Origin: a virus
Strand: one strand, 5' to 3'
Length of the DNA stretch: 26,703 nucleotides
IMG/VR virus record: IMGVR_UViG_3300037264_002106
Span: 1-26,703 of that record
Position numbers and translations under genes: made by a program. Below, piece after piece: positions 3,001 through 24,753 of the stretch; the first letter of the stretch is position 1, and every line of letters starts with the position of its first letter. The notes beneath the pieces were generated by a model. It did not search any database. It saw nothing but the letters and a program-made list of their open reading frames with translations, and had not been told where the DNA came from.

Positions 3001-3690
3001 TTATTTCACTGTTACAAGAAATCCATTCACCTCAATACCTTTCAAATTGGATATTCTATCTTTGATATATCCAGAAACTGACTTCTTTTGGTTCTTAATC
3101 TCTTGTATAGACATGTTTCTACCACTTACTAAAATCACACCAGTGATAATTGGTTGATTTTTAGTTACATAGCTTAGTAAATTGCTTCTACCTACTGTTT
3201 TATTCCTAGGTTGTTTACCTATAGACAGAGCTGGAGTTGTACCCACACTTATACTACCAACTCTCTTTGAATTAGTAGTTTGGATAGTAGAAGGATCCAC
3301 CCTTGTAGTAACAGTCTTCTTCTTAGGAAGAGAGTAAATACGAAATGTCCCATTATCAACATAGTCAAACAATCCATCTCCGGATAGTTGAATCATATAA
3401 TTACTAACTGTGGACTGATCCCAGTAGTAATAAGGATAATCTCTTCGTAACTCTGTCTTGATTTCAAGAGTAGTTACAGTGTTATTTGCTTTCAGTAAAG
3501 TTTTTGCTGTAGTTAATACAGCTTGTTTCATTGCTTTCATTGTTGTTGTTTTATTTAGTAAATAAATCTCGTTTTCCCGAATAGTAAGACAGTTTCCATG
3601 TGCATCGCAAATGTCATACTGTCCATCACCAAGTTCTCTAAATACCCTAAAGGCACGTATCACCTTTACATAATCTCCTATTTTAATCAT
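3001..3690 (-). CDS. Probable winged-helix DNA-binding protein
   Basis: A 229-residue protein of unrecognised family. Residues 1-48 look like a small beta-barrel (SH3 or KOW type): GDYVKVIRAF, then YDICDAHGNC. Residues 50-122 look like a winged helix: a helix rich in Ala and Lys, then TTLEIKTELRRD, WDQSTVSNYMIQLS as a candidate recognition helix, and a wing ending in GTFRIYSL. A Thr/Ser/Lys-rich linker leads to a C-terminal domain of about 60 residues. Met50 or Met53 (TTTMKAMKQ) could be an internal start giving a protein without the barrel. It is the last gene before a terminator, so it closes a transcript. DNA binding is inferred from shape only. Confidence 0.6.
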   Translation of the reverse strand: MIKIGDYVKVIRAFRVFRELGDGQYDICDAHGNCLTIRENEIYLLNKTTTMKAMKQAVLTTAKTLLKANNTVTTLEIKTELRRDYPYYYWDQSTVSNYMIQLSGDGLFDYVDNGTFRIYSLPKKKTVTTRVDPSTIQTTNSKRVGSISVGTTPALSIGKQPRNKTVGRSNLLSYVTKNQPIITGVILVSGRNMSIQEIKNQKKSVSGYIKDRISNLKGIEVNGFLVTVK

Positions 3691-3691
3691 A

Positions 3692-3937
3692 TTACTTTTT
3701 TTTGAATGTTATTTCTGATTTATTTTTCTCTAACCATTTCCCTAAATTTACAGGATTTCCTTCCCATAACTCTTCCTCTTCATCATATCCCCAAGGCTGA
3801 ATAGTGAAGTTTGAAGAGGGTGTAAATTTCTCCAATCCATCATTACACCTCTTACACAGTACATTCTGTCTGTGGCTTCCAACAGGATTGTTATCCTTGT
3901 CTAGAATTGTGTACTCTATTACATTTGCTGATGTCAT
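3692..3937 (-). CDS. Small protein of unknown function
   Basis: An 81-residue protein that I do not recognise. It begins with a short beta-type segment (EYTILDKDNN), has one CxxC pair (LCKRCND, residues 27-33), and ends Lys-rich. A single CxxC could be half of a zinc site completed by dimerisation, or part of a small HNH-like remnant, but no matching His motif is present. It ends directly before the winged-helix-like gene and begins at the edge of the largest non-coding gap in the window, so it may be the first gene of a transcript that runs to the terminator at 2952-2983. Confidence 0.6.
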   Translation of the reverse strand: MTSANVIEYTILDKDNNPVGSHRQNVLCKRCNDGLEKFTPSSNFTIQPWGYDEEEELWEGNPVNLGKWLEKNKSEITFKKK

Positions 3938-3948
3938 GTCGTTTGTTT

Positions 3949-4035
3949 TTAAAATTCTTTAACACTTGGTGAAGGTGCAGGTAACAAATCAACTTTCAAA
4001 AACTCATGAATGCCTATTTCAATCTGCTTATCCAT
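3949..4035 (-). CDS. Possible 28-residue peptide
   Basis: A short open frame encodes MDKQIEIGIHEFLKV followed by a Pro/Ser-rich tail and a TAA stop 11 bases before the next gene. Its ATG lies 14 bases after the inverted repeat at 4050-4086, like other genes here that follow structured leaders. It has no recognisable motif and could equally be a chance frame in the leader of the gene at 3692-3937. Confidence 0.28.
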   Translation of the reverse strand: MDKQIEIGIHEFLKVDLLPAPSPSVKEF

Positions 4036-4049
4036 TATAAGAGTTAATT

Positions 4050-4086
4050 TTTGCGAAAGGTACTGCATATCGGTACTTTTCGCAAA
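4050..4086. repeat. 14-base inverted repeat with 9-base loop
   Basis: Left arm 4050-4063 (TTTGCGAAAGGTAC) pairs with right arm 4073-4086 at 13 of 14 positions. The odd pair is G-U on a plus-strand RNA but C-A on a minus-strand RNA. No T-run follows in the direction of the genes, so it is not a typical terminator. It could be a protein-binding site or a structured leader for the short frame or gene that follows. Confidence 0.7.
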
Positions 4087-4126
4087 TTATCTATCTGCTA
4101 ATTTAGTAATAATTTATACACAAAAC

Positions 4127-4150
4127 TGCAAACATTGCAAAGGCTGCAAA
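4127..4150. repeat. Three phased TGCAAA direct repeats
   Basis: TGCAAA occurs at 4127-4132, 4136-4141 and 4145-4150, exactly 9 bases apart (TTTGCA on the gene strand). The array ends one base before the stop codon of the gene at 4152-4361. Phased short repeats of this type often bind a replication initiator or a regulator. Three copies in an AT-rich genome is suggestive rather than conclusive. Confidence 0.5.
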
Positions 4151-4151
4151 C

Positions 4152-4361
4152 TCAGGTTTTCCGGTAATGACCGGCTTTTAATTTATCCAAAGCCTTGCCG
4201 GTAGCGTTGTGGACAAAAGAAACTTTGTCTGTTTCTCCATCTCTATAGGAAGAATAATTAACCTTCTCATAACTATAGAAGTTCTTGTGAATTTCAGAAG
4301 CTATTTGAGAAAAATTCTCAGCTGTATATTTGGTATTACCGTGCATGCTATAAATATACAA
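4152..4361 (-). CDS. Small protein of unknown function downstream of the PARP gene
   Basis: A 69-residue protein that I do not recognise. It is rich in Tyr, His, Lys and Ser and has no signal peptide or membrane segment. Two starts are possible, Met1 and Met6. It begins 7 bases after the PARP-like gene ends, so the two are almost certainly on one transcript and it may be a partner or modulator of that enzyme; nothing in the sequence tests this. Its last codons overlap a short palindrome (CCGGT/ACCGG), and its stop codon borders the phased TGCAAA repeats. Confidence 0.55.
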   Translation of the reverse strand: MYIYSMHGNTKYTAENFSQIASEIHKNFYSYEKVNYSSYRDGETDKVSFVHNATGKALDKLKAGHYRKT

Positions 4362-4368
4362 AATTTTC

Positions 4369-5559
4369 TTATTTCAACCAAATTATATAACGGATTCTTG
4401 CCTGTTCCTCATTATATGCACATATTTCTGAATTCAGTAGTCCGTTACCTGCCTTAACAAACAAACTATCATATCCTCTCTTTTGAAGCTCTTTGTAACA
4501 CAGTTCAAATTCTGAACCTTTATACCATCCGTTGTATGTGTAAAATTTTCCCACATGAACCTCGTATACTAAGATTATTCTATCTTCAGTATAACCTGTG
4601 TATCCAAGCGACTTTTGCATAGTCTCACTAAAATAATTGGCATTCCCATAGATTTTTCCTGAAAATTGGTAATTTCCTACTGGCCTGATCTTGAGACCTA
4701 TTTCAAGAATCGGGATCACTGAAGTTGTTCTCGTCCCGTGGATAAGCATTTTAGTACTCTTATCTTTCTGTTTATCCAACCATTTGTCAAAGACATCATC
4801 CTCTGCTGGTTTGTTTAGCTCAAATACAGAGACTATCTTTCTCCCATGATTCTGCTTTACCAAATACTCTACTTCTTTAGGAACTCCATTACATTCTTTC
4901 ATAGAAGAGATTCCCAATTTATCTAATAGAGTTTGGGCTTTCTTCTTGTCTTTCTTGGCATCTTTAGTAGTTTGAGTTTTTAATAGACTCACTTGCCCAG
5001 CCATCGCATCGATATTATCCTGCTCCTGAACCATCGTCTTACCTAAGTTGATATTAGGGAGTAAATGGTCTGGAACCCTTGACATATATCTAGGAATCAC
5101 AGTGTATAACTCTACCAATTTATCATTAACCTGTCTGATCAAACGTGCATCCATTTTTCCAATTTCATCAATTAATTCCTGAGCTTTATCCACTTGCTTT
5201 TGGGATACTGATTCAGCCTTAACAGAATAGGTAGTACTAACCAGCTTATCTGTATAATTCTTCATTAAAATAAGGAACTCGTTAACTGTCTTATCTTTAA
5301 TATCTGTCAAGTTTTCTTTTTGTTTTGTAACTGGTTGTACATCAACAGTTACCAAATCAGTGACATCCTTATACCCTTTATTTATTTTTTCATTATACTT
5401 TGTGCTCCATTTACCATATGGGTAGCTCACTGATTGAGATGTACTCTCTACTCTTCCATACTTAACAGAGAACTCAGTACCTCCATTCCAAGTCATCTCA
5501 TAAAATTTATTATTGTTATCAGGAGTTACCATTATCAATTTACAATACTTATTATTCAT
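4369..5559 (-). CDS. Poly/mono(ADP-ribose) polymerase (PARP) with WGR domain
   Basis: A 396-residue PARP-type ADP-ribosyltransferase with three domains in the order of PARP2/PARP3. Residues 1-68 match a WGR domain: KFYEMTWNGG, VKYGRV as the WGR signature, and a closing NKGY. Residues 88-235 resemble the helical regulatory domain, with VSQKQVDKAQELIDEI (118-133) and LYTVIPR (151-157) aligning to its known landmarks. Residues 270-396 are the catalytic domain. HGTRTT gives His274, ANYFSE gives Tyr309 and NSEICAYN gives Glu378, so the His-Tyr-Glu triad looks complete. PARPs transfer ADP-ribose from NAD+ to proteins or DNA ends, and WGR domains bind DNA breaks. The start overlaps the upstream gene's stop. 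Family identity is strong; target and chain length are unknown. Confidence 0.9.
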   Translation of the reverse strand: MNNKYCKLIMVTPDNNNKFYEMTWNGGTEFSVKYGRVESTSQSVSYPYGKWSTKYNEKINKGYKDVTDLVTVDVQPVTKQKENLTDIKDKTVNEFLILMKNYTDKLVSTTYSVKAESVSQKQVDKAQELIDEIGKMDARLIRQVNDKLVELYTVIPRYMSRVPDHLLPNINLGKTMVQEQDNIDAMAGQVSLLKTQTTKDAKKDKKKAQTLLDKLGISSMKECNGVPKEVEYLVKQNHGRKIVSVFELNKPAEDDVFDKWLDKQKDKSTKMLIHGTRTTSVIPILEIGLKIRPVGNYQFSGKIYGNANYFSETMQKSLGYTGYTEDRIILVYEVHVGKFYTYNGWYKGSEFELCYKELQKRGYDSLFVKAGNGLLNSEICAYNEEQARIRYIIWLK

Positions 5560-6035: not shown

Positions 6036-6272
6036 TTAATTGTTAATACTATACCTTCTGACATATCCAGAAAATGAGAAGTAGATTTCATCAAGTATTC
6101 TTCTTTGTCTAAAGTTTAATTCACTATTAAACCAATTGCAATTAATACCTAGCTTTATACAAGCAGCATATCTTGAATACCCATATATCATTATTTCTCT
6201 TACTCTTCTAAGAGCATCGTAAAATTTTAGCTGTTTCTGTTTCAAGTTTGATACTTTTATGTAGTTATTCAT
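6036..6272 (-). CDS. Small protein with possible helix-turn-helix
   Basis: A 78-residue basic, aromatic-rich protein of unknown family. Residues 24-52 (REIMIYGYSRYAACIKLGIN and the following NWFN) have the pattern of a resolvase- or transposase-type helix-turn-helix: a small residue before Ser, an Ala-Cys turn, then Leu-Gly-Ile before a second helix. A DNA-binding role is possible but weakly supported. It starts inside the last codons of the ligase gene (8-base overlap), so it is probably translated along with it. Confidence 0.58.
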   Translation of the reverse strand: MNNYIKVSNLKQKQLKFYDALRRVREIMIYGYSRYAACIKLGINCNWFNSELNFRQRRILDEIYFSFSGYVRRYSINN

Positions 6273-7344
6273 ATTCTTTACGGTTTAATTTAATAATGTA
6301 AGGGAAGCGTGGCACGTCATCTGGGGTACGGTTGAAATACTTAACAGTAGCCTGAGTACCTATGTATTTTTTATGATTTTTCCAAATGTCCTTGAGAAAT
6401 TCGAAATCACCTTTAACATTGCTTTTGAATGTTTTGTCTTTTTGTTTGTCATGTGCCATAATAAAGTAGCCAATTGTCCCAGCACGACCCCCTTCTCCTT
6501 CTTCTGCTCCAATAATTTTGAATTCTTCATCTACAAAATCCTTCTTCTTCAGAAGCTGTTTACTTCTCTTGCCCTCATAAGGTCCTAAATCAAGTCTGAT
6601 AATACTGCCCTCATACCCTTCTGATAGAAACTTTTCATGATATTTATCCACATCTGCCTGATTCTTAACTTCATAGGTGGGAACAAGCTTATATCCAAGT
6701 AAGAATTCAAGAGCTTTTTTCAGAGCTTTATATCTCTCAGAAAATACGCCTTGATGTTCTGGAAAATCATAAGCCCAAAATTCTACCTTCTTGTGAGACT
6801 CCACTAACTCCTCAGCTGTAGGTTTCTGCTTCTTACACAAGGATACTATTTTATTGAAATCATCATGTAATTCATGATTATATAACTCTCCATCTAAAAC
6901 ATAATGAGTTTGATAGAGATGGAGACAAGCTAAGTAGGGTTTACCGTTTCTACTCATCAAGGTATTATCCTGACTGATAGCTCTTAAACCATCTAGTTTG
7001 GGCTGAATATAGGTGGGTACTGTAAATAGAAACTTCTCATACTTACTTATTTCATGAGCTAACATAGGTTGAAAGAATTTCTTTTCTCTTGTTAGCTTTT
7101 CATTGTATCCACTATCCACCTTCTTTTGCCATTTTGCTTGTGCTTCTGCAATAGCTTGCTCCTGAGGGGTAGTTTCGTTACTTCTTCCTATATTTTTACT
7201 CTTACAGTAAGTGGGAAGGGACTTTGTAATAGTCCCATCCACTATACCTTCTTCTGTCCAAAAGTGGTCATCCTTAACAAATATCTGCCACTGCTGAATT
7301 TGATCTTTTTCTGTATACTTAAATAGTATTGGGAATTTTTTCAT
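6265..7344 (-). CDS. ATP-dependent DNA ligase with N-terminal WGR-like domain
   Basis: A 359-residue ligase that seals nicks using ATP. The adenylation motif is KLDGLR at 116-121, with Lys116 as the AMP acceptor. Further nucleotidyltransferase motifs follow: LDGELY (150-155), EGSIIR (245-250) and LLKKKDF with FKIIGA (264-280). A short OB-type C-terminus completes the core. Residues 15-85 are not part of the core. They resemble a WGR-type domain: QQWQIFVKDDHFW, then EEGIVDG, NIGRSNETTP and a closing DSGY. The same kind of domain begins the PARP about 0.7 kb downstream. The gene overlaps the metallophosphoesterase upstream by 4 bases. The ligase call is very secure and the WGR-like call is good. 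Confidence 0.93.
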   Translation of the reverse strand: MKKFPILFKYTEKDQIQQWQIFVKDDHFWTEEGIVDGTITKSLPTYCKSKNIGRSNETTPQEQAIAEAQAKWQKKVDSGYNEKLTREKKFFQPMLAHEISKYEKFLFTVPTYIQPKLDGLRAISQDNTLMSRNGKPYLACLHLYQTHYVLDGELYNHELHDDFNKIVSLCKKQKPTAEELVESHKKVEFWAYDFPEHQGVFSERYKALKKALEFLLGYKLVPTYEVKNQADVDKYHEKFLSEGYEGSIIRLDLGPYEGKRSKQLLKKKDFVDEEFKIIGAEEGEGGRAGTIGYFIMAHDKQKDKTFKSNVKGDFEFLKDIWKNHKKYIGTQATVKYFNRTPDDVPRFPYIIKLNRKEYE

Positions 7345-8078
7345 ATATTAATTATTAAAGGGTTAGTAATCAATTGAGTATAATCATTTGTAAGAACAGC
7401 AGCATTTGAGAATAGTACCCTTCTGGCATTAGACACACTTTCTAGTGTTACACCATACTGATCATGAATATGACCAAAACAAACTAATTTAAGATTGAAC
7501 AGTCTCTTTCTCATAACAGCAAGCAGATCTTTACATCCTCTATGTATATCCTCATCTTTAGCCTGTTTGTATTTCTCAGGTATTTTATCAAATATTCCAT
7601 AAGGAGGAGTATGTGTTATGAGCACATTAACATCAGAAGGAATCTTTGCCCAATATTTGTTAATTTCTACTCCTATATCGGCATTAAATACCCAATTTTT
7701 TCTATGAAAAGAAGGAGAAATAGGAGAACCATAGAACTTTATTCCCTTGTAAACATACTCCTCATTTTCTAAATAGTGTACAGCATAATTACTTAGAAGA
7801 TTTTTGGATGCTTCATGTTCTACAAGAGAATGCAAGTGTTCCTGAACATCTGACTTTTCGGACACCCATTTTTTATCTAGACAAATATCATGATTACCTG
7901 CACAAAATATTTTTACATCTGCGGGTTGCTGTTCAAACCATATTAGAAACTCAGTCAACTCTCTAGAATTAGTCCTTCCACCGATATCTCCAGAGTGGAT
8001 GAGAACATCACACTCTGGGATTACTAATTGACTGTGTCCTTTATGTCCATGTGTATCAGAAATATGCACTATTTTCAT
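7341..8078 (-). CDS. Calcineurin-type metallophosphoesterase (first copy)
   Basis: A 245-residue metallophosphoesterase with all core motifs: SDTHGH (Asp8, His10), HSGDIGG (Asp31), AGNHD (Asn62-Asp64), THTPP (His156) and GHIHDQYG (His203, His205). These residues bind two metal ions and hydrolyse phosphomono- or phosphodiesters. The THTPP and GHIH layout is closest to the small MPPED-type or YfcE-like soluble enzymes; there is no signal peptide. It lies between rIIB and the DNA ligase with 4-base overlaps on both sides. A role in trimming DNA-end phosphates or cyclic nucleotides is possible, but the substrate cannot be read from the sequence. Metallophosphoesterases are common in crAss-like replication modules. 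Confidence 0.88.
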   Translation of the reverse strand: MKIVHISDTHGHKGHSQLVIPECDVLIHSGDIGGRTNSRELTEFLIWFEQQPADVKIFCAGNHDICLDKKWVSEKSDVQEHLHSLVEHEASKNLLSNYAVHYLENEEYVYKGIKFYGSPISPSFHRKNWVFNADIGVEINKYWAKIPSDVNVLITHTPPYGIFDKIPEKYKQAKDEDIHRGCKDLLAVMRKRLFNLKLVCFGHIHDQYGVTLESVSNARRVLFSNAAVLTNDYTQLITNPLIINI

Positions 8079-9478
8079 ACTATATGTTTTACTCTATTCT
8101 TTAACAAATTTCTTATCTGATCCAAATCCACCAAGGATACAGAAGGAACATTATCCTGAACACTTAACCCATAAAATGTCTTGTTACGAGCTGCATCCTC
8201 TAGTTCTTCCAGAGTGAAATCATGATATTCCTCATCAAATGCAGATAGACCATTGTCATCAAAATGTATACCCTGAGGTTTATCATTTATACAAGCAACA
8301 AACATTTCAGTTGTTCTTAATTTACCAACATCTCCTAAAGGAACGGTTATAGCCTTACTTGGATTAACTAGTACTACTACTGGAGTATCACCATATCCTG
8401 AGTAATTATAATCTACTGAAGCAGCATGTAGCCCACCTGCAGCACATATTCCATTATTTAGGTTTATTTTATTATCAGGAATACTATATATACCACCTAT
8501 CTTAATAGAAGTATTCATTGCATACCAAGCTCCATAATCATTCTCCTTGAATGTAGGTAATTCTAAGTACATAACTTGTAGATTTCCAATCAGTTCTGAG
8601 TTAAACTTATATTCATCATTAAGAGATACAACATAATATCCTTTTTCTCCTTTACCTACTGCATATTCACGGGGATCTCTACCACTCTTCTTTATTGAAT
8701 AATAAGTCTGACTTACAAAAGAAAGTAGAGCTTTATCAGTACCTCCTTTACTAACAATGCGCCTATATAGGATAAGATTACCATTTCTTGTGATACGTAC
8801 ATCATTCTTCCTTACAAACAAAAGCAGGTCTTCTCTACTTTGAGCAAGAGGGTTAAGTGCCAGCTTTAACCAGAACATTGTTAATGCAGTGTAGCTATCT
8901 TGTAGCTCTTTACGCTCTTCCTCATCCATTGAACACTCTAATTTTTCTAATATCTCTATAAAAGATGCTATTACAGGAGCTGGAATATCCAAATTAACTC
9001 CTTTCATAGTCACTGTATTACCCTTTATGGTAAAATCTCCACTATCTCTAATTACATCTAAACTATTCATTATCAACCTTCTATCATATTCTGTGTCAAT
9101 TTCCTGTTCATCATGACTAGTATACACTTGATCAACTAACAAATCTTCTATTTCTGATTGTGTTTTAGCACTCTTTACATCTTGAAAGAGAGAATTATCT
9201 ACTCCGGTCTTACAGATAACATCCCCATTTGCAAATACTACAGTGATATGTCCGTCACAATAGAGGATATTCTTGTATGGTCGGTCTGGTGCTTTTGGCT
9301 CCATTAGACCATAGTCCATAATATGTCTAGGAGGTATTGTACTTTGTTCTGTTGTAGAAGTACTAGGAGGGGTATAACCACTATCACCCTCTCTATTATC
9401 TTTTTCTTGTTTTTCCTTAGCTTCTTTAAGGATTTTTCTTTCTTCTGATGTAAGCCATAACATTTTAAACCATTTCAT
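8075..9478 (-). CDS. rIIB: rIIB-like protein
   Basis: A 467-residue homologue of phage T4 rIIB, a protein tied to lysis inhibition and protection against lambda Rex-type exclusion. The recognisable part is residues 228-400. ITRNGNLILYRR lies at 229-240, a central MNTSIKIGG strand follows, then the diagnostic CAAGGLHAASVDY (345-357) and VVVLVNPSKAITVP (367-380). T4 rIIB is 312 residues long; the extra length here is an N-terminal extension of about 200 residues. That extension has a charged coiled segment (12-30), a Ser/Thr/Pro linker (34-50) and a small beta domain starting at GHITVVFANGD. It overlaps rIIA by 4 bases in the same gene order as in T4. Confidence 0.8.
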   Translation of the reverse strand: MKWFKMLWLTSEERKILKEAKEKQEKDNREGDSGYTPPSTSTTEQSTIPPRHIMDYGLMEPKAPDRPYKNILYCDGHITVVFANGDVICKTGVDNSLFQDVKSAKTQSEIEDLLVDQVYTSHDEQEIDTEYDRRLIMNSLDVIRDSGDFTIKGNTVTMKGVNLDIPAPVIASFIEILEKLECSMDEEERKELQDSYTALTMFWLKLALNPLAQSREDLLLFVRKNDVRITRNGNLILYRRIVSKGGTDKALLSFVSQTYYSIKKSGRDPREYAVGKGEKGYYVVSLNDEYKFNSELIGNLQVMYLELPTFKENDYGAWYAMNTSIKIGGIYSIPDNKINLNNGICAAGGLHAASVDYNYSGYGDTPVVVLVNPSKAITVPLGDVGKLRTTEMFVACINDKPQGIHFDDNGLSAFDEEYHDFTLEELEDAARNKTFYGLSVQDNVPSVSLVDLDQIRNLLKNRVKHIV

Positions 9479-11751
9479 ATTTGTGTGTTTTGTGGAAGTA
9501 CAAATTCTGTACCCTCCGGTAAATCGTCATAATATTTTTTCCGAAAATAAAGAATTTGGGTAATAAGAGTTTTATACCTCTTATTCATCTGTAGATCCCA
9601 AGAAGTGGGTTGATCCAGAAGTGTGATAAAATCATACTTCTTTATATTGTCCCTCAATCTTACATACTTATCCCATAAGGATAGGTCATATAGTTTATAT
9701 TCATCTGCTATGTTCTTTATATACTCATAGATTTTAACATCTGCCTTAAGCTTCAGATTTTTCTCAACATATTCAGCTAACGCCTCTCTATCCTTCTTCA
9801 TATCTTTTACAAATTTATTAAGTATTCCATTATTAAAGGACTTAAGCTCATTTATATCATCAAGGAGTCTTTGAAATACTAGTGCAGAGGCCAATCTCAT
9901 AAAAGGTTTACAATTCGACATAAAATTAGTTAAATTTATAAATTGATGAATATCAGGTACTTTCTTTCTCTCATTTTTTCCTACAGTGGCAAACTTAATA
10001 TTAGGACATTTCATAAAGTTTATCATGAGCTTTATCATATCTATATTAGGTTCATTCTCATCCAATAGAACAGTTAAGAATTTATTACTTGGTAGAGATG
10101 AAATAGGAAAGCTTGCCTTTTTGAAGGATACTCCTCTAAGACTTGTATAACTATAAGCCATAGTGACATCACCTAATTTCTTATTTAGTCCACTATATAT
10201 TCCTTTTGTAGCATTAGCCAATCTTAGCTGTTTTTGATCCTCTTTCTTTTCTTCAAGCCATTTGATATATATAGGAGTTGAGTCTACTGCCGTTTCATCC
10301 TTAAAAGTACTAATAACACTTGACTCTACAAAATCAAATTCATCTATATAGGATTGCCAGTTGGGTTTATTATTAGGCAAAAGAAGAAGCATAGAACGGT
10401 AGCTTTCAGGCTCTCCTGAAATTGGTAGAGCACCAGCTGAATCTATCACTCGCACTATAGAATTTTTTCTTACGAATAAAGTGTTAGACTTGTATTTTGC
10501 TTTTAAATATTCTTTAATATTTCCAACAAAATTCATTCCTACAAGTACAGTTAATTTCTTATCAAATATATGAGAATTCTTATTAACTCTGAGTCTTCTG
10601 CCTTCATTTTTCATAATTCCTCCATGATTCAAATAACCTGCTATATTATATTGAGCAAAGAAATGTCGATTTAACTTATGATAAAAATCAGCACTCTTTA
10701 GATTAATCCCAGTAACTACTGGAGACTTTACAGAATGTTTTGAATATTGAAGAATAGGATTAATAAGAAAACCATCTAAAGTATAATCAGAAATATTCAA
10801 ATGAGGATATGCGTCTAGGAATGTAGTAAATTGCTTCACTCTATCATTATATGTAAGTACAAACCAGTCTGCCACCTTCTTTATCTTATCTAGGATAAGC
10901 TTTTTAGTCTTCTCATTGGTAATATAACTTTCTCTGGATGGAGTTGGAGTAATTCCTTCTCCTAGCTCGAAACGAAGAGCTACACCTACATTTATAGCCG
11001 AAATATAACCTAGTGCCTCCCAATCTATTGAGTAATATACATCCTTTAGACATATATGCATCACTCTATTAGTATTTAGGGTAGACCATTGAAAATCTAC
11101 ACTCCTATTTATCGTATTCTCCACCACCTGTCCATCTATTATAAGGGCTACAGTGTCATAGTAGGCTAGTTTTTGTTTAGCTTTACTAGTAAAAGTACTG
11201 TATTCACTCCATCCATTTATTACCAATTCAGCTTTCACCCCACTTTTCTCAGTAGTGGGACGGGCATATATCAGGTCAAAATTAACAAACTCCTCACCCT
11301 CATATACAAGATATTTTCTCTCTATTCCGTTCTTCCTGCATATAAAAGTGGCAGAGCGTTCAAGTGATAAGAATGACTTCATACCCAATCCCCATGAACC
11401 AATAAACTCATTACTATCCTCTTTAGTAGATTCCAAATAGTTCATACATATATCCTCAAAATCTCTATCATCTAACCCAACTCCAAAATCCTCTACTGAG
11501 AACATATGCTTATTATTTTCCCTTTCTATTTTTACCAGAACAGGATTCTCTATGGGACTTTTTCCAGTCTGTACAACACTATCTACCCCATTATTTACCC
11601 ATTCAGCTATCACTGCTGTAATAGGATCCTTATATAACCCTTTAGTAAGGAGATACTGAAGTTTTCCAAGCTTATCCTGACTAATTTTGGCTCGCTTACT
11701 TGTATCCTCCCCAACTACAGTTAATTGCTTAATCTTTTCTTTTATAATCAT
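9475..11751 (-). CDS. rIIA: rIIA-like protein with GHKL ATPase domain
   Basis: A 758-residue homologue of T4 rIIA (725 residues). The N-terminus is a GHKL-type ATP-binding domain like those of gyrase B, Hsp90 and MutL. AEWVNNGVDS gives Glu50, Asn54 and Asp57, VEDFGVGLD gives the D-x-G-x-G at 88-92, and GSWGLGMKS (118-126) is the ATP-lid glycine loop. The remaining 500 residues are helical and Lys-rich without a named domain. rIIA acts with rIIB, probably at the inner membrane, to delay lysis and resist exclusion by resident prophages; the molecular activity is unsettled. Its stop codon overlaps the rIIB start and its start overlaps a small unknown gene. Confidence 0.85.
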   Translation of the reverse strand: MIIKEKIKQLTVVGEDTSKRAKISQDKLGKLQYLLTKGLYKDPITAVIAEWVNNGVDSVVQTGKSPIENPVLVKIERENNKHMFSVEDFGVGLDDRDFEDICMNYLESTKEDSNEFIGSWGLGMKSFLSLERSATFICRKNGIERKYLVYEGEEFVNFDLIYARPTTEKSGVKAELVINGWSEYSTFTSKAKQKLAYYDTVALIIDGQVVENTINRSVDFQWSTLNTNRVMHICLKDVYYSIDWEALGYISAINVGVALRFELGEGITPTPSRESYITNEKTKKLILDKIKKVADWFVLTYNDRVKQFTTFLDAYPHLNISDYTLDGFLINPILQYSKHSVKSPVVTGINLKSADFYHKLNRHFFAQYNIAGYLNHGGIMKNEGRRLRVNKNSHIFDKKLTVLVGMNFVGNIKEYLKAKYKSNTLFVRKNSIVRVIDSAGALPISGEPESYRSMLLLLPNNKPNWQSYIDEFDFVESSVISTFKDETAVDSTPIYIKWLEEKKEDQKQLRLANATKGIYSGLNKKLGDVTMAYSYTSLRGVSFKKASFPISSLPSNKFLTVLLDENEPNIDMIKLMINFMKCPNIKFATVGKNERKKVPDIHQFINLTNFMSNCKPFMRLASALVFQRLLDDINELKSFNNGILNKFVKDMKKDREALAEYVEKNLKLKADVKIYEYIKNIADEYKLYDLSLWDKYVRLRDNIKKYDFITLLDQPTSWDLQMNKRYKTLITQILYFRKKYYDDLPEGTEFVLPQNTQI

Positions 11752-15625: not shown

Positions 15626-16420
15626 TTAAAAAGGTGCTTTTTTATACTTATCCCATTCATTCTTGTCCCACATTATACAACTTGCTCTATTACCAGTAGC
15701 TATTTTATTTTCAGTGATTATTTTGTTAATAGTGTTGAAAATGTCTTGACAATCCCAATCTGTACCAGCATAAGAAGCTGCTGCAGGGTGAGATAGTTCA
15801 AAAATCTTACAAAATGGATTAATATACTTTTTCATCCTTAAAGACGCCTTTCCACATAAGACGTAAATGATATCCTTCTTACTACCCAAAATATCCTCAA
15901 GAAGGTATTGTTGAAAAGGTTCCCATAATCCCTCATGAGAGGCTGTTTTATTCAATTTACAGGTAAGATCGGTATTTAGGAGCATTACCCCTTGTTCATG
16001 AAGATACTCTAAGGAAGGGCTATAATTAACCTTCTCATCCATACTATTAGAGAGAGCATCATACCATTTTAACAGAGAGGGTTGTATCTTCCCATCGGGA
16101 CTATTTGAACAGTCCATTGCAATTCCAGTTGCCTGAAAAGTCCCGTTACTATATTTACGAGGATACGGGTCCATTAAGTAGAAAATAACTGTTGTCCAAT
16201 TCATAGGGGTAGTGCTAAAAGCCCGGAACAAGTCCGAGCTCTTAGGAACTACCACGTCTTCAAGGGAATCTTTTTTTATCCTCTGCATTATATCCCACAT
16301 CGGTCTACTCTCAATAAATGGATGAAACCTATCACTCCAACTTCCAAGTTTCTCTTTAAATGATTGGAACTCAAGCTGTTCTCCTGTCCACATTTCTATT
16401 TGTTTAGTTTTTATAATCAT
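15626..16420 (-). CDS. ung: Uracil-DNA glycosylase, family 1
   Basis: A 264-residue enzyme that removes uracil from DNA. The catalytic-water loop reads LMDPYPR (82-88), keeping Asp84 and Tyr86 but replacing the usual leading Gly-Gln and final His. The uracil-specific segment is MLLNTDLTCKL (146-156) with SHEGLWEPF (161-169). YVLCGKASL (186-194) matches the strand before the Leu-intercalation loop, and LSHPAAASY (209-217) is the HPSPLS loop with His211. The extra N-terminal 60 residues are usual for this family. Uracil-DNA glycosylases are frequent in crAss-like replication modules. It overlaps the macro-like gene upstream by 4 bases, linking base removal with possible ADP-ribose binding. The fold is secure; full activity needs testing because of the altered first motif. 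Confidence 0.83.
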   Translation of the reverse strand: MIIKTKQIEMWTGEQLEFQSFKEKLGSWSDRFHPFIESRPMWDIMQRIKKDSLEDVVVPKSSDLFRAFSTTPMNWTTVIFYLMDPYPRKYSNGTFQATGIAMDCSNSPDGKIQPSLLKWYDALSNSMDEKVNYSPSLEYLHEQGVMLLNTDLTCKLNKTASHEGLWEPFQQYLLEDILGSKKDIIYVLCGKASLRMKKYINPFCKIFELSHPAAASYAGTDWDCQDIFNTINKIITENKIATGNRASCIMWDKNEWDKYKKAPF

Positions 16421-16890
16421 ATTAATTGATTACTTGTATCAGGATATTCCATAGTGTTTCGTACATCATTGTCTGTTGCCTCCTGTTTATCAATAATGTC
16501 AATAAACTCCTGAGGAAGCCAGACATTTTGTTGAAATCTTACTGAATCAAAGAAAGGAGCTATTAATTCAGGAGTATATCCTGCCAATCCACATCCTATT
16601 CTTGTCACCTTAAATTTCCATCCGTCAGTCATCTTCCTGCGTGTAAAGGCAATAAATCTATCAACGTATTGTTTAATAATTGGTAGAGGAAGAGGATTCA
16701 TTTCCCAACTCTTTGTAGGAATGGCAAATGTCTGAGCAGATGGTCCAAATCCTTGTCCTAAGAAAGCTCCGAATTTCTCATAGGCAAGCTTGGCTGCTCC
16801 TGCTCCGTGTACCCCCAGTTCATTACTTCCGAAGACAAACATCTCGTCTCTTTCTAAGTCAGCTATGTTTTCTGGTGTTACTCTGGCCAT
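16417..16890 (-). CDS. Macro-domain-like phage protein (A1S_2505 type)
   Basis: A 157-residue protein of a family common in phages and plasmids. Its landmarks are MFVFGSNELGVHGAGAAKLA (17-36), GQGFGP (45-50), FAIPTKSW (55-62), VTRIGCGLAGY (95-105) and IAPFF (110-114). The early Asn before a Gly-rich HGAGAA loop and the later GCGLAGY loop mimic the ADP-ribose-binding loops of macro domains, and I believe this family adopts a macro-like fold. Binding or removal of ADP-ribose is therefore plausible and interesting given the PARP in the same window, but it is not established for this family. It overlaps the uracil-DNA glycosylase by 4 bases. Family membership is good; function is inferred. Confidence 0.65.
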   Translation of the reverse strand: MARVTPENIADLERDEMFVFGSNELGVHGAGAAKLAYEKFGAFLGQGFGPSAQTFAIPTKSWEMNPLPLPIIKQYVDRFIAFTRRKMTDGWKFKVTRIGCGLAGYTPELIAPFFDSVRFQQNVWLPQEFIDIIDKQEATDNDVRNTMEYPDTSNQLI

Positions 16891-21901: not shown

Positions 21902-24373
21902 TTAATTTATAGACCTTAGTCTTCTTATTTCAGCAAGAATCGGAGATGCCTTGCCTATATCATCAAGATTTTTAAGAGCCCAATCTCTCCACCATTGAGG
22001 AGTCTCATGAACTAATTTTCCATTGAATTTTCCAAAAGTGACTACCACTTTATTATTTATTAATGCCTCCTTATGCACTTGCTTTAATCTAACTTTCTCA
22101 TTTTCAGATTCATCTGTTACATCTCCTATTGCATGAATAGGAACTCCTGTAAGAAGTCTTCCACCTGTTCCATATAACTTCCATATATTCTTCTTTTTAA
22201 AATGAAGATCTTCTATTCTTCCAAATTTGCTAGTGTTTCCTACAAAATCTATAATAAGACAATTTTTCTTAGCGGGGTGAATACGAGTACCTCTTCCACA
22301 CTGTTGATAAGATAATGATAATGAAGCAGTTGGGCGACCTAAAATAACACAATCTACCTCAGGATAATCAAATCCTATAGAAAACACATTAACATTAATA
22401 GCAACTTGTATTTGTTGACTTTTAAACATATGAACAGCTATCTCTCTTTCATCTCTTGGCATATTTCCGTATACAGCTACAGAGGAAGGTATAATTTGAG
22501 CCAACCTTTGAGCCTCAGCTACAGATGGAACAAATACTATTATACTTCTTCTCCTATCTCTACTATTTATATCAAGTATCTTGTCAACAATTCTTTCTCC
22601 TATATTTTGGTTATTATATGCTCGTTCAATAGACTCATCTGTATATTCAGCTTGAGTGCTATTATAGATAAGATCTCCTGTATCAAAATCATATTCCTCA
22701 TATTCTAACTTTGCCCAATAATTATCTTTTATAATATCCTGAATCTGAGTAATATGTATAATATTCTTAAAAAAATTACCATGTTTACTCTTTGAAGTGA
22801 GTATTTTAATAATACTATACGCCTCCATATTCATAGAATTGGTCTGTAACTTAAAAGGAGTTGCTGTAAATCCTAATACCTTTTTTATCTGTGACTCCTT
22901 TAAGAATTTACCAAGCATACTGTCATTTGTTCTGGGATATCTGTCACAATTATGGACTACTATACCATCTGCAGAAAAATTTCTCTTTCTACAATTATCT
23001 GAACAGACTATAAAGTTGTGATTATCTAATACTTGAATATCATACACCTGTTCACTTTTTATAGGTAAGCTACTTATAAAGACAGATACATTTGGTAAAC
23101 TCTTACTATTCCACTCATATGTCCCACATCGTTTTTTGTAATAGTTCGGAATTTTATAAGCCATACTCTTATGGACATAGATTGAAATTCTGCTCATTAG
23201 TTGTTTAGTCCCTAATTTTCTTATTCCAATACACCAGTAAGGTTTCTTTGTTGAAGAGCTTTTTCTATTATAAATTACTGTGTCTGTAATCCCTAATTCC
23301 GTTAACTTCCTCTGGAGTGCTTGTACTAAAGTCTGTGAATTAGCGCATGAGAATAGAGTACAATTATTCTCGTACTTACCTAAACTACCATCATCCATCC
23401 AAATAATAGCTAATTGTTTTAGATTTAAAGAATTTATAAGAGACATTTTGTCTTTTATATTTCTATCATCGTAAAACGTAGGAGTTGTAAATCTAATTGC
23501 TGACTTCTGAGAATATCCATTATTTAAAACAGATTCAGTTTTGGATGATAATAATTTAGCCTTCCATTCAATATAATTAGACTGTTTCATACCATGAATA
23601 CAGGTAATTCTACCGCTAAATTTACCACATCTCTTATGAAAATAGGAATCTCCTAAACAACTTCCAGCTACTACGTCTAACTGATCAGCATTATACTGAA
23701 TAAAGTCACTTTTTGAATGTTTTTCTTTAGTAGAAGAAATTACTGTGTCACCAAATATAAGACTATCTGCTCTTCTCCAACCACTATTTGTTAGAAATAA
23801 GTGATTATCAGTACAAGTAATATTTCTTCTATGAGAAAATCTAAGTTTCAATAATCGTTTATCCCCCCTCTTTATAACAGACTTAATTTTCTTGAATTCA
23901 AATTTCTTAGTCTTTAAATTATAGGTTTTTACTTTAGGTAATATTATTCCTTTTATAAATTTATTATATAAAGTGCCTATTCTCTCACATCTGTTTTCTG
24001 TAGAAATTTGAGTATTATAAGGAAAACACTCATCTATAATAAGATTTTTACAATCAGTAAATTTATTTCCTATTTTACATATAGAACCTATCGTTGCATA
24101 AGTAATATCTCCAAACTCTTTTTGTCTCATCGATGCAGAATAAATGGAGGCTTTACCACCTAAATTTACTAATTTTTCATAATTTTGTTCAAGTAGTTCC
24201 TTAGAAGGTTGTAAAATAATAGTCTTTCCTTCTATTTCTTTAGCAATATGAGCAATCACTATTGACTTTCCAAATGCTACGGGTTCAACCATAAGGGAAG
24301 GAACAGAATAAGGTTGTTTAAAAAATTCTATACCTATATTAACAGGATCAATTTGATTCTCTCTTAATTTCAT
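21902..24373 (-). CDS. SF2 DNA helicase interrupted by an intein
   Basis: An 823-codon gene encoding a superfamily-2 helicase of 463 residues once its intein is removed. I choose the ATG at 24373, which gives MKLRENQIDPVNIGIEF and starts 11 bases after the upstream stop. An upstream ATG at 24427 would add 18 residues and overlap that gene by 43 bases. From the chosen start, motif I is PVAFGKS (31-37), motif II is DE before and CD after the intein (114-115 and 476-477), motif III is TAT (503-505) and motif VI is QQCGRGTR (690-697). The compact layout resembles phage UvsW-like branch-migration helicases. Motif II is split, so the helicase should be inactive until splicing. Confidence 0.88.
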   Translation of the reverse strand: MKLRENQIDPVNIGIEFFKQPYSVPSLMVEPVAFGKSIVIAHIAKEIEGKTIILQPSKELLEQNYEKLVNLGGKASIYSASMRQKEFGDITYATIGSICKIGNKFTDCKNLIIDECFPYNTQISTENRCERIGTLYNKFIKGIILPKVKTYNLKTKKFEFKKIKSVIKRGDKRLLKLRFSHRRNITCTDNHLFLTNSGWRRADSLIFGDTVISSTKEKHSKSDFIQYNADQLDVVAGSCLGDSYFHKRCGKFSGRITCIHGMKQSNYIEWKAKLLSSKTESVLNNGYSQKSAIRFTTPTFYDDRNIKDKMSLINSLNLKQLAIIWMDDGSLGKYENNCTLFSCANSQTLVQALQRKLTELGITDTVIYNRKSSSTKKPYWCIGIRKLGTKQLMSRISIYVHKSMAYKIPNYYKKRCGTYEWNSKSLPNVSVFISSLPIKSEQVYDIQVLDNHNFIVCSDNCRKRNFSADGIVVHNCDRYPRTNDSMLGKFLKESQIKKVLGFTATPFKLQTNSMNMEAYSIIKILTSKSKHGNFFKNIIHITQIQDIIKDNYWAKLEYEEYDFDTGDLIYNSTQAEYTDESIERAYNNQNIGERIVDKILDINSRDRRRSIIVFVPSVAEAQRLAQIIPSSVAVYGNMPRDEREIAVHMFKSQQIQVAINVNVFSIGFDYPEVDCVILGRPTASLSLSYQQCGRGTRIHPAKKNCLIIDFVGNTSKFGRIEDLHFKKKNIWKLYGTGGRLLTGVPIHAIGDVTDESENEKVRLKQVHKEALINNKVVVTFGKFNGKLVHETPQWWRDWALKNLDDIGKASPILAEIRRLRSIN
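22949..24028 (-). other. LAGLIDADG intein inside helicase motif II
   Basis: A 360-residue in-frame insertion. It begins with Cys (CFPYNTQIST, block A) and has a TxxH-type block B (TCTDNHLFLTNSGW). It carries two LAGLIDADG helices (LDVVAGSCLGD at 232-242 and LAIIWMDDGS at 321-330 of the host protein), then VYDIQVLDNHNFIVCS (block F), and ends IVVHN followed by Cys as the +1 residue (block G). All splicing residues appear present: Cys1, the block-B His, the penultimate His, the terminal Asn and Cys+1. The two endonuclease motifs keep their acidic residues. It splits the helicase between Glu and Cys of DECD, a conserved active-site position typical of homing targets. Confidence 0.93.
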
Positions 24374-24384
24374 TACTTTGAATT

Positions 24385-24753
24385 TTAATCCCAAAATTGA
24401 AATATTGGATGTACCCACTTTGGACATTTGCCTCTTGCAAAAATTACGACACCAACAACTGTAGTTCCCCTTATTTGATATTTTTTCTTAGCTTCTTCCA
24501 TTGATTCTCCAGTTGTTAAAACATCGTCAACAATCAAAGTGATACGTTTAGAACCTGTTCCACCATACGGTCTCAATTTTTCTGCTAATAGGTTACCACC
24601 TTTAGGAATACCATAAACATCCATAAACTTATATTTTTTAGCTATTAAGTAAGCTAAACACTCTATATCTGTATCTGTTAGTTCATTACATTCAATTTTG
24701 AAGTCAGATTTCTTTCCAGAATGTAAAATTAGATTCTTTTTACTAAATAACAT
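24385..24753 (-). CDS. Orotate-phosphoribosyltransferase-like protein
   Basis: A 122-residue protein of the type I phosphoribosyltransferase fold. The PRPP-binding motif is LIVDDVLTTGES (73-84). Residues 9-24 (ILHSGKKSDFKIECNE) resemble the N-terminal hood of orotate phosphoribosyltransferases, and VYGIPKGGNLLAEKL (46-60) the loop before the active-site Lys region. It is shorter than cellular PyrE (about 210 residues), as many phage versions are. The presumed role is nucleotide salvage or synthesis for phage DNA. An alternative is that it has become a regulatory PRPP binder. It sits between a small gene and the SF2 helicase within the replication block. Confidence 0.78.
   Translation of the reverse strand: MLFSKKNLILHSGKKSDFKIECNELTDTDIECLAYLIAKKYKFMDVYGIPKGGNLLAEKLRPYGGTGSKRITLIVDDVLTTGESMEEAKKKYQIRGTTVVGVVIFARGKCPKWVHPIFQFWD

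Follow-up and report, generated by a model that had tools for sequence, protein, structure and literature searches.

What role does a poly(ADP-ribose) polymerase (PARP) play in a virus of bacteria? To our knowledge, the function of PARPs outside eukaryotes is essentially unknown. The window, i.e. the whole stretch of DNA that was analysed, is an entire IMG/VR record of 26,703 bases, which is itself a fragment of a phage genome. Pfam and PHROG matches show its gene content to be that of a phage replication, recombination and repair module, with genes for a DnaB-like helicase, a helicase with a homing-endonuclease insert, a Sak4-like protein, a primase, UDG, a DNA ligase and an HNH endonuclease; rIIA- and rIIB-like genes (PHROGs 612 and 609) are also present. 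We favour, with a probability of about 0.6, a phage PARP of the DNA-dependent (PARP1/2/3) type that would serve in this repair module together with a winged-helix partner and an eraser. The features concerned are listed below.

4369–5559, minus strand: PARP, 396 aa, WGR – helical regulatory domain – ART catalytic domain (Pfam, PHROG, alignment, model)
5350–5559, minus strand: WGR domain, residues ~1–70, with Y34-G35-R36 at the WGR position (Pfam matches of relatives; structural alignment to 4dqy_C)
4978–5298, minus strand: helical regulatory domain, residues ~88–194, with LYTVIPR (model helices; alignment to the PARP1 helical domain)
4372–4905, minus strand: ART catalytic domain, residues ~219–396, triad H274-Y309-E378 (Pfam, alignment, structure)
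3001–3690, minus strand: winged-helix partner gene, 229 aa (co-location, model, fold matches)
3331–3552, minus strand: winged-helix domain, residues 47–120 of the 229-aa protein (model)
3692–4361, minus strand: two small ORFs, 81 aa (3692–3937) and 69 aa (4152–4361), separating PARP from the winged-helix gene (ORF list)
6265–7344, minus strand: ATP-dependent DNA ligase, 359 aa (Pfam DNA_ligase_A_M 3e-14; PHROG 114 1.5e-72; synteny)
16417–16890, minus strand: A1S_2505-family protein (P0003), 157 aa, candidate divergent macrodomain (NCBIfam NF049995 1.6e-36; hhalign)

Several other features of the window can be mentioned. In the gap downstream of PARP, positions 4050–4086 contain a 16-pair inverted repeat, TTTGCGAAAGGTAC...GTACTTTTCGCAAA, which may be a terminator or a regulatory site. 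The rIIA/rIIB-like genes form an adjacent pair at 8075–11751, immediately upstream of the ligase-PARP cassette. At 21902–24427 a helicase ORF is broken by an insert that resembles a homing endonuclease (PHROG 11023) and is probably an intein.

The PARP open reading frame occupies exactly positions 4369–5559 of the minus strand, and the plus strand across this region has stop codons throughout. Pfam detects the catalytic domain at residues 228–340 (E 3e-15), and PHROG 23333 covers the protein over its full length (E 9.4e-63). The Pfam WGR score of the window PARP is weak (E 0.0099; 16.4 bits, below the cut-off of 22); the same family is matched by 19 of 20 aligned relatives (best 1.3e-7). No match to Pfam PARP_reg was found in the window PARP. 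A phmmer comparison with the PDB finds the helical and catalytic domains of PARP1 (5e-10), and a profile of the 20 relatives reaches PARP2 at 1.4e-27, as well as PARP1, PARP3, PARP4 and the tankyrases. The helical segment aligns with the PARP1 helical domain both by sequence and by structure. These sequence and structure matches are far beyond chance.

A sequence-only reading of the window had proposed a phage-encoded PARP with a three-domain layout like that of PARP2/PARP3 and a complete His-Tyr-Glu triad, and had suggested superposing a predicted structure on human PARPs. The motifs were verified by position (Y34-G35-R36, LYTVIPR, H274 in LIHGTRTT, Y309 in NANYFSE and E378 in LLNSEICAYN), the triad residues being where that reading had placed them; H274, Y309, E378, G35 and R36 are invariant in an alignment of 16 phage and bacterial sequences. 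The AlphaFold2 model (pLDDT 79.3, pTM 0.77) matches over residues 1–396 the WGR-HD-CAT portion of human PARP1 (4dqy_C, bound to a DNA double-strand break), with a Z of 25.1 and an rmsd of 3.7 Å for 354 residues. This structural alignment takes in WGR residues 1–70, and the Z scores to PARP1/2/3 structures are about 22–25, which bears out the proposed layout. The domain limits needed small corrections: the three domains follow one another in the order given, but the catalytic fold begins near residue 220–240 and not at 270, and the helical domain spans about residues 88–194. As judged from sequence and model, the ART fold, H-Y-E triad, WGR and helical domain place the window PARP in clade 1, the DNA-dependent PARPs (ARTDs).

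The model alone is no proof of active-site geometry, since loops 291–305 and 371–375, near the active site, have pLDDT values below 50. These low-confidence loops, together with the weak Pfam WGR score, could be read as signs of an inactive or mono-ADP-ribosylating relic that is retained for DNA binding. A relic is very improbable, however, given the invariance of the triad in the 16 diverged sequences, reading frames that remain full-length at 22–69% identity, and the retention of erasers beside sister PARPs, as described below.

PARP genes were reported from four dsDNA viruses, Cellulophaga phage phi4:1 among them, by Perina et al. (2014; PMC4245714), who also list bacterial PARPs with the H-Y-E triad. 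The related Herpetosiphon PARP requires DNA and produces long PAR chains (PMC4245714). Most bacterial PARPs have YGR and a helical domain that is undetected by Pfam (Garcia-Saura et al., 2018; PMC5966428). Relatives of the window PARP are found in at least 68 viral loci of IMG/VR (with two short sequence patterns), in 14 phage GenBank records and in many Bacteroidota genomes. Thus, the rarity in phages and bacteria that the sequence-only reading had assumed is not upheld. The lineage, which it had left as possibly undescribed, was reported in 2014 (phi4:1; PMC4245714), and the annotation of a Klebsiella phage protein names all three of these domains. With the phi4:1 homologue, the annotation in phage FBKp34 and the 68 IMG/VR loci, the window PARP represents a known kind of gene.

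A PARP is also carried by a contig of a Candidatus Nanoarchaeia MAG (L025), which is relevant because archaea were said to be without PARPs. It was rejected as an archaeal PARP: the same contig has homologues of the ligase and the metallophosphatase of the window, and these phage-like neighbours make a binned phage probable.

The winged-helix partner gene of these PARPs appears to be new, as does the TARG1-like eraser neighbour described below. Nothing on a PARP–winged-helix pair or a PARP–TARG1 pair in prokaryotes or phages was found in the open-access journal literature searched. In the phage clade of the window, a winged-helix homologue lies directly downstream of PARP in L001, L002 and L028/L029; in the window itself the two small ORFs intervene. 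The homologue is 762 bp downstream in L003, directly upstream in L083, and represented by gp030 in phi4:1. The gene adjoins PARP in all 15 Bacteroidota loci with sufficient downstream sequence (L010–L017, L019–L024 and L026), at gaps of −55 to 446 bp, or 1,176 bp in L026; the HMM was seeded partly by L014, L015, L020 and L022, and the remaining loci were not seeds. All 13 PARP-bearing Bacteroidota genomes contain it, 12 of them as a single copy at the PARP locus.

Genome samples, none of them corrected for phylogeny, served as controls. Among 395 genomes sampled class-wide, three have PARP, four have the winged helix and two have both, including the query genome; without the query genome, the co-occurrence has a Fisher p of 0.015. 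The order sample (n=150) shows both genes in the same two genomes, one of which is the centre genome and both of which were previously known PARP carriers. In the Spirosoma-family sample (n=150), the winged helix is present in 18 of 18 PARP genomes, 11–203 bp downstream and on the same strand, vs. 15 of the 132 genomes without PARP (p 1e-14, with kinship not corrected for). The two genes are not strictly inseparable, in view of these 15 PARP-less genomes and of the sister phage clade of PARPs, in which the winged-helix gene was not found. Several of the Spirosoma-family orphans share both locus and flanking genes with PARP carriers, and one orphan (L106) has a decayed PARP fragment beside it; loss of PARP is therefore likely for those orphans. 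In a quick PARP tree, winged-helix linkage needs two changes, one in a phage clade and one in a bacterial clade.

The Spirosoma-family PARP loci have additional flanking genes. Small helical paralogues (L020 8880–9836, L021 8700–9830, and L100–L119) match PADLOC pPIWI_RE_Z (1e-14 to 1e-19), and a conserved divergent gene that by eye is similar to WYL-type regulators is also found. The locus in this family is possibly defence-like.

The winged-helix domain has no match in Pfam or NCBIfam. In the model of the 3001–3690 protein, helices at residues 47–69, 74–84 and 92–104 are followed by strands at 109–112 and 117–120, which is the helix-helix-helix-strand-strand topology of a winged helix; pLDDT is about 70–97 over blocks 51–130, and the beta-rich flanks are of low confidence. 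The model matches Zur (3mwm) with a VIA Z of 10.9 and an rmsd of 2.0 over 69 residues, many further winged helices match as well, and the best Foldseek match is 2mh2, titled homologous-DNA recognition domain. The fold is also like that of small DNA-binding repressors (BlaI, MecI, Fur, PadR), and in most bacteria the protein is small (about 80–140 aa), as might be expected if it only regulates transcription of the PARP operon and is no working partner. We regard this as possible but appreciably short of an even chance. The gene is mostly downstream of PARP, not upstream; it is kept in phages, where the protein has extra flanking regions; and winged helices are found in DNA-recombination proteins too, as with 2mh2. 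The downstream position and the retention in phages weakly favour a working partner; such a partner would probably recruit PARP to DNA, or else modulate its activity or its choice of targets.

The sister phage clade has another neighbour of PARP. Of the 36 nonredundant PARP sequences in this clade, 30 have a macrodomain of ~145 aa encoded directly upstream, typically within 15 bp, and five more have it about 700–900 bp upstream. The resulting two-gene pair of writer and eraser is seen across many phage genomes among L032–L078 (e.g. L060, 9528–9965); at least L051, L053 and L067 have an extra gene, homing-endonuclease-like by eye, between macrodomain and PARP. The L060 macrodomain matches human TARG1/OARD1 at 1.4e-27, and the TK (LITK/LVTK) and GCGLD motifs are kept. 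Pfam Macro is present in 28 of 36 PARP phage records, and among these it is absent from every record of the window's close clade.

The window encodes an A1S_2505-family protein, P0003, ~11 kb from PARP. Among the PARP phage records searched, the family is found only in the phage clade of the window (G689, G690, G691 and G720; 0 of 33 others). It is not PARP-specific, since 415 phage records, often N4-like, contain it. An hhalign comparison of the P0003 profile with the TARG1-like family gives a probability of 89% (E 2e-6), and the best PDB profile matches of P0003 are macrodomain-type proteins, but at E 0.12 or worse. P0003 has no Pfam match; an invariant K60 lies near the TARG1 Lys motif, and the Asp of GCGLD is replaced by Ala (GCGLA). 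Single-sequence patterns revealed no close relatives in IMG/VR; relatives came to light through synteny and among N4-like phages. From these profile and motif similarities the protein is possibly a divergent macrodomain, an assignment that is not firm, and a role as ADP-ribose eraser for the window PARP is a guess. In one relative (L083 17104–21045, minus strand; G720 29407–29784), the A1S_2505 domain forms part of a very long open frame of 2355 aa, which suggests a fused polyvalent protein.

Ligase, PARP and winged-helix genes are neighbours in the window, L001, L002, L003, L083 and phi4:1, and their orders differ; L028, where the ligase is far from PARP, is an exception. Retention of the cassette despite changed gene orders argues for function and not for a frozen order. 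Given the linkage to ligase and the surrounding repair module, the most likely role of the PARP is to signal breaks in phage DNA or to help process that DNA. The sequence-only reading had suggested that the enzyme could tag phage or host proteins, cap DNA ends or interfere with host NAD+-based defence; judged by the genes around it, DNA repair with reversible ADP-ribosylation is a better fit than depletion of NAD+. Two further observations concern these neighbours. The ligase N-terminus resembles a second WGR domain by eye (KW..K...GY), a candidate that was provisionally discarded at an hhalign probability of 0.9%. In L028, which comes from a phage related to that of the window, the gene directly upstream of PARP (8346–9968) looks by eye to encode GroEL.

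The main rival to a repair role is counter-defence, whereby the PARP would ADP-ribosylate a host immune protein, a nucleic acid or an NAD+-sensing factor, and the repair neighbours would be incidental. The rIIA/rIIB-like genes of the window can be seen in this light, as the T4 rIIA/rIIB pair affects exclusion. There is also the precedent of AcrIF11, which shows that phage ADP-ribosyltransferases can be anti-defence (PMC12421852). Nevertheless, we consider counter-defence unlikely: PARP is linked to DNA ligase within the clade, its WGR-HD-CAT layout is that of the DNA-break type and not of a compact toxin-like ART, and Bacteroidota chromosomes have a counterpart with the same winged-helix partner. 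In addition, PADLOC has a match for neither the PARP nor its winged-helix partner, and the PARP was accordingly dismissed as a known defence component.

For the preferred DNA-repair role, a sequence of events can be proposed. By analogy with PARP1/2 and the Herpetosiphon PARP, the window PARP would be activated by DNA breaks, use NAD+, and carry out auto- and trans-modification. The WGR domain would dock on a break or nick, the helical domain would loosen, and the H-Y-E site would open to host NAD+; ADP-ribose would then be put on the PARP itself and, at the break, on proteins or on the DNA ends. The enzyme may act in this way within the replication, recombination and repair module, next to DNA ligase and with the winged-helix protein. 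Later, the ADP-ribose would be taken off by the TARG1-like macrodomain in the sister clade, and possibly by the A1S_2505-type protein in the window phage.

PARPs that travel with winged-helix or eraser genes suggest that phages have their own reversible ADP-ribose tagging circuit. A broader proposal, which is tentative and which we place a little below an even chance, is that phages and Bacteroidota have a PARP module of their own, consisting of a break-activated PARP, a dedicated winged-helix cofactor (an HPF1-like role) and, in phages, a dedicated eraser (a TARG1-like macrodomain or an A1S_2505-type protein). If true, this would give phage DNA repair a full cycle of ADP-ribose addition and removal. 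The tight single-copy partner and the PARP-eraser operon provide handles on the role of DNA-break ADP-ribosylation in prokaryotes, and the operon raises the question of whether it is a phage counterpart of eukaryotic writer-eraser logic.

With respect to known systems, gp031 of phi4:1 (AGO49444.1), annotated as poly(ADP-ribose) polymerase, has 32% identity to the window PARP over 100%. As in the window, a winged-helix gene (gp030) and a DNA ligase gene (gp029) are its neighbours, but the order is PARP–winged helix–ligase, unlike that of the window, and phi4:1 has an annotated macro domain protein, gp002 (a weak macro match), where the window has the A1S_2505-type protein. The PARP of Klebsiella phage vB_KpM_FBKp34 (QQV91759.1), whose record note names WGR, regulatory and catalytic domains, is 24% identical to that of the window; it is without a winged-helix neighbour, and a macro-like gene is 2.4 kb upstream. 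The macrodomain of the sister clade is like TARG1/OARD1 (C6orf130), whereas the window clade is without Pfam Macro and its A1S_2505-type protein has GCGLA. Human PARP1, PARP2 and PARP3 have in common with the window PARP the WGR-HD-CAT order, the H-Y-E triad and the whole-length fold. The phage protein differs from them in its ~22% identity, in being without zinc fingers, in having YGR for WGR, and in its compact size of 396 aa. YGR and the H-Y-E triad are shared with bacterial PARPs (Herpetosiphon, Clostridioides difficile CD160 and Bacteroidota; PMC4245714; PMC5966428), whose helical domain is likewise often missed by Pfam. What sets the window PARP apart from these bacterial enzymes is its setting in a phage replication module and its DNA ligase neighbour.
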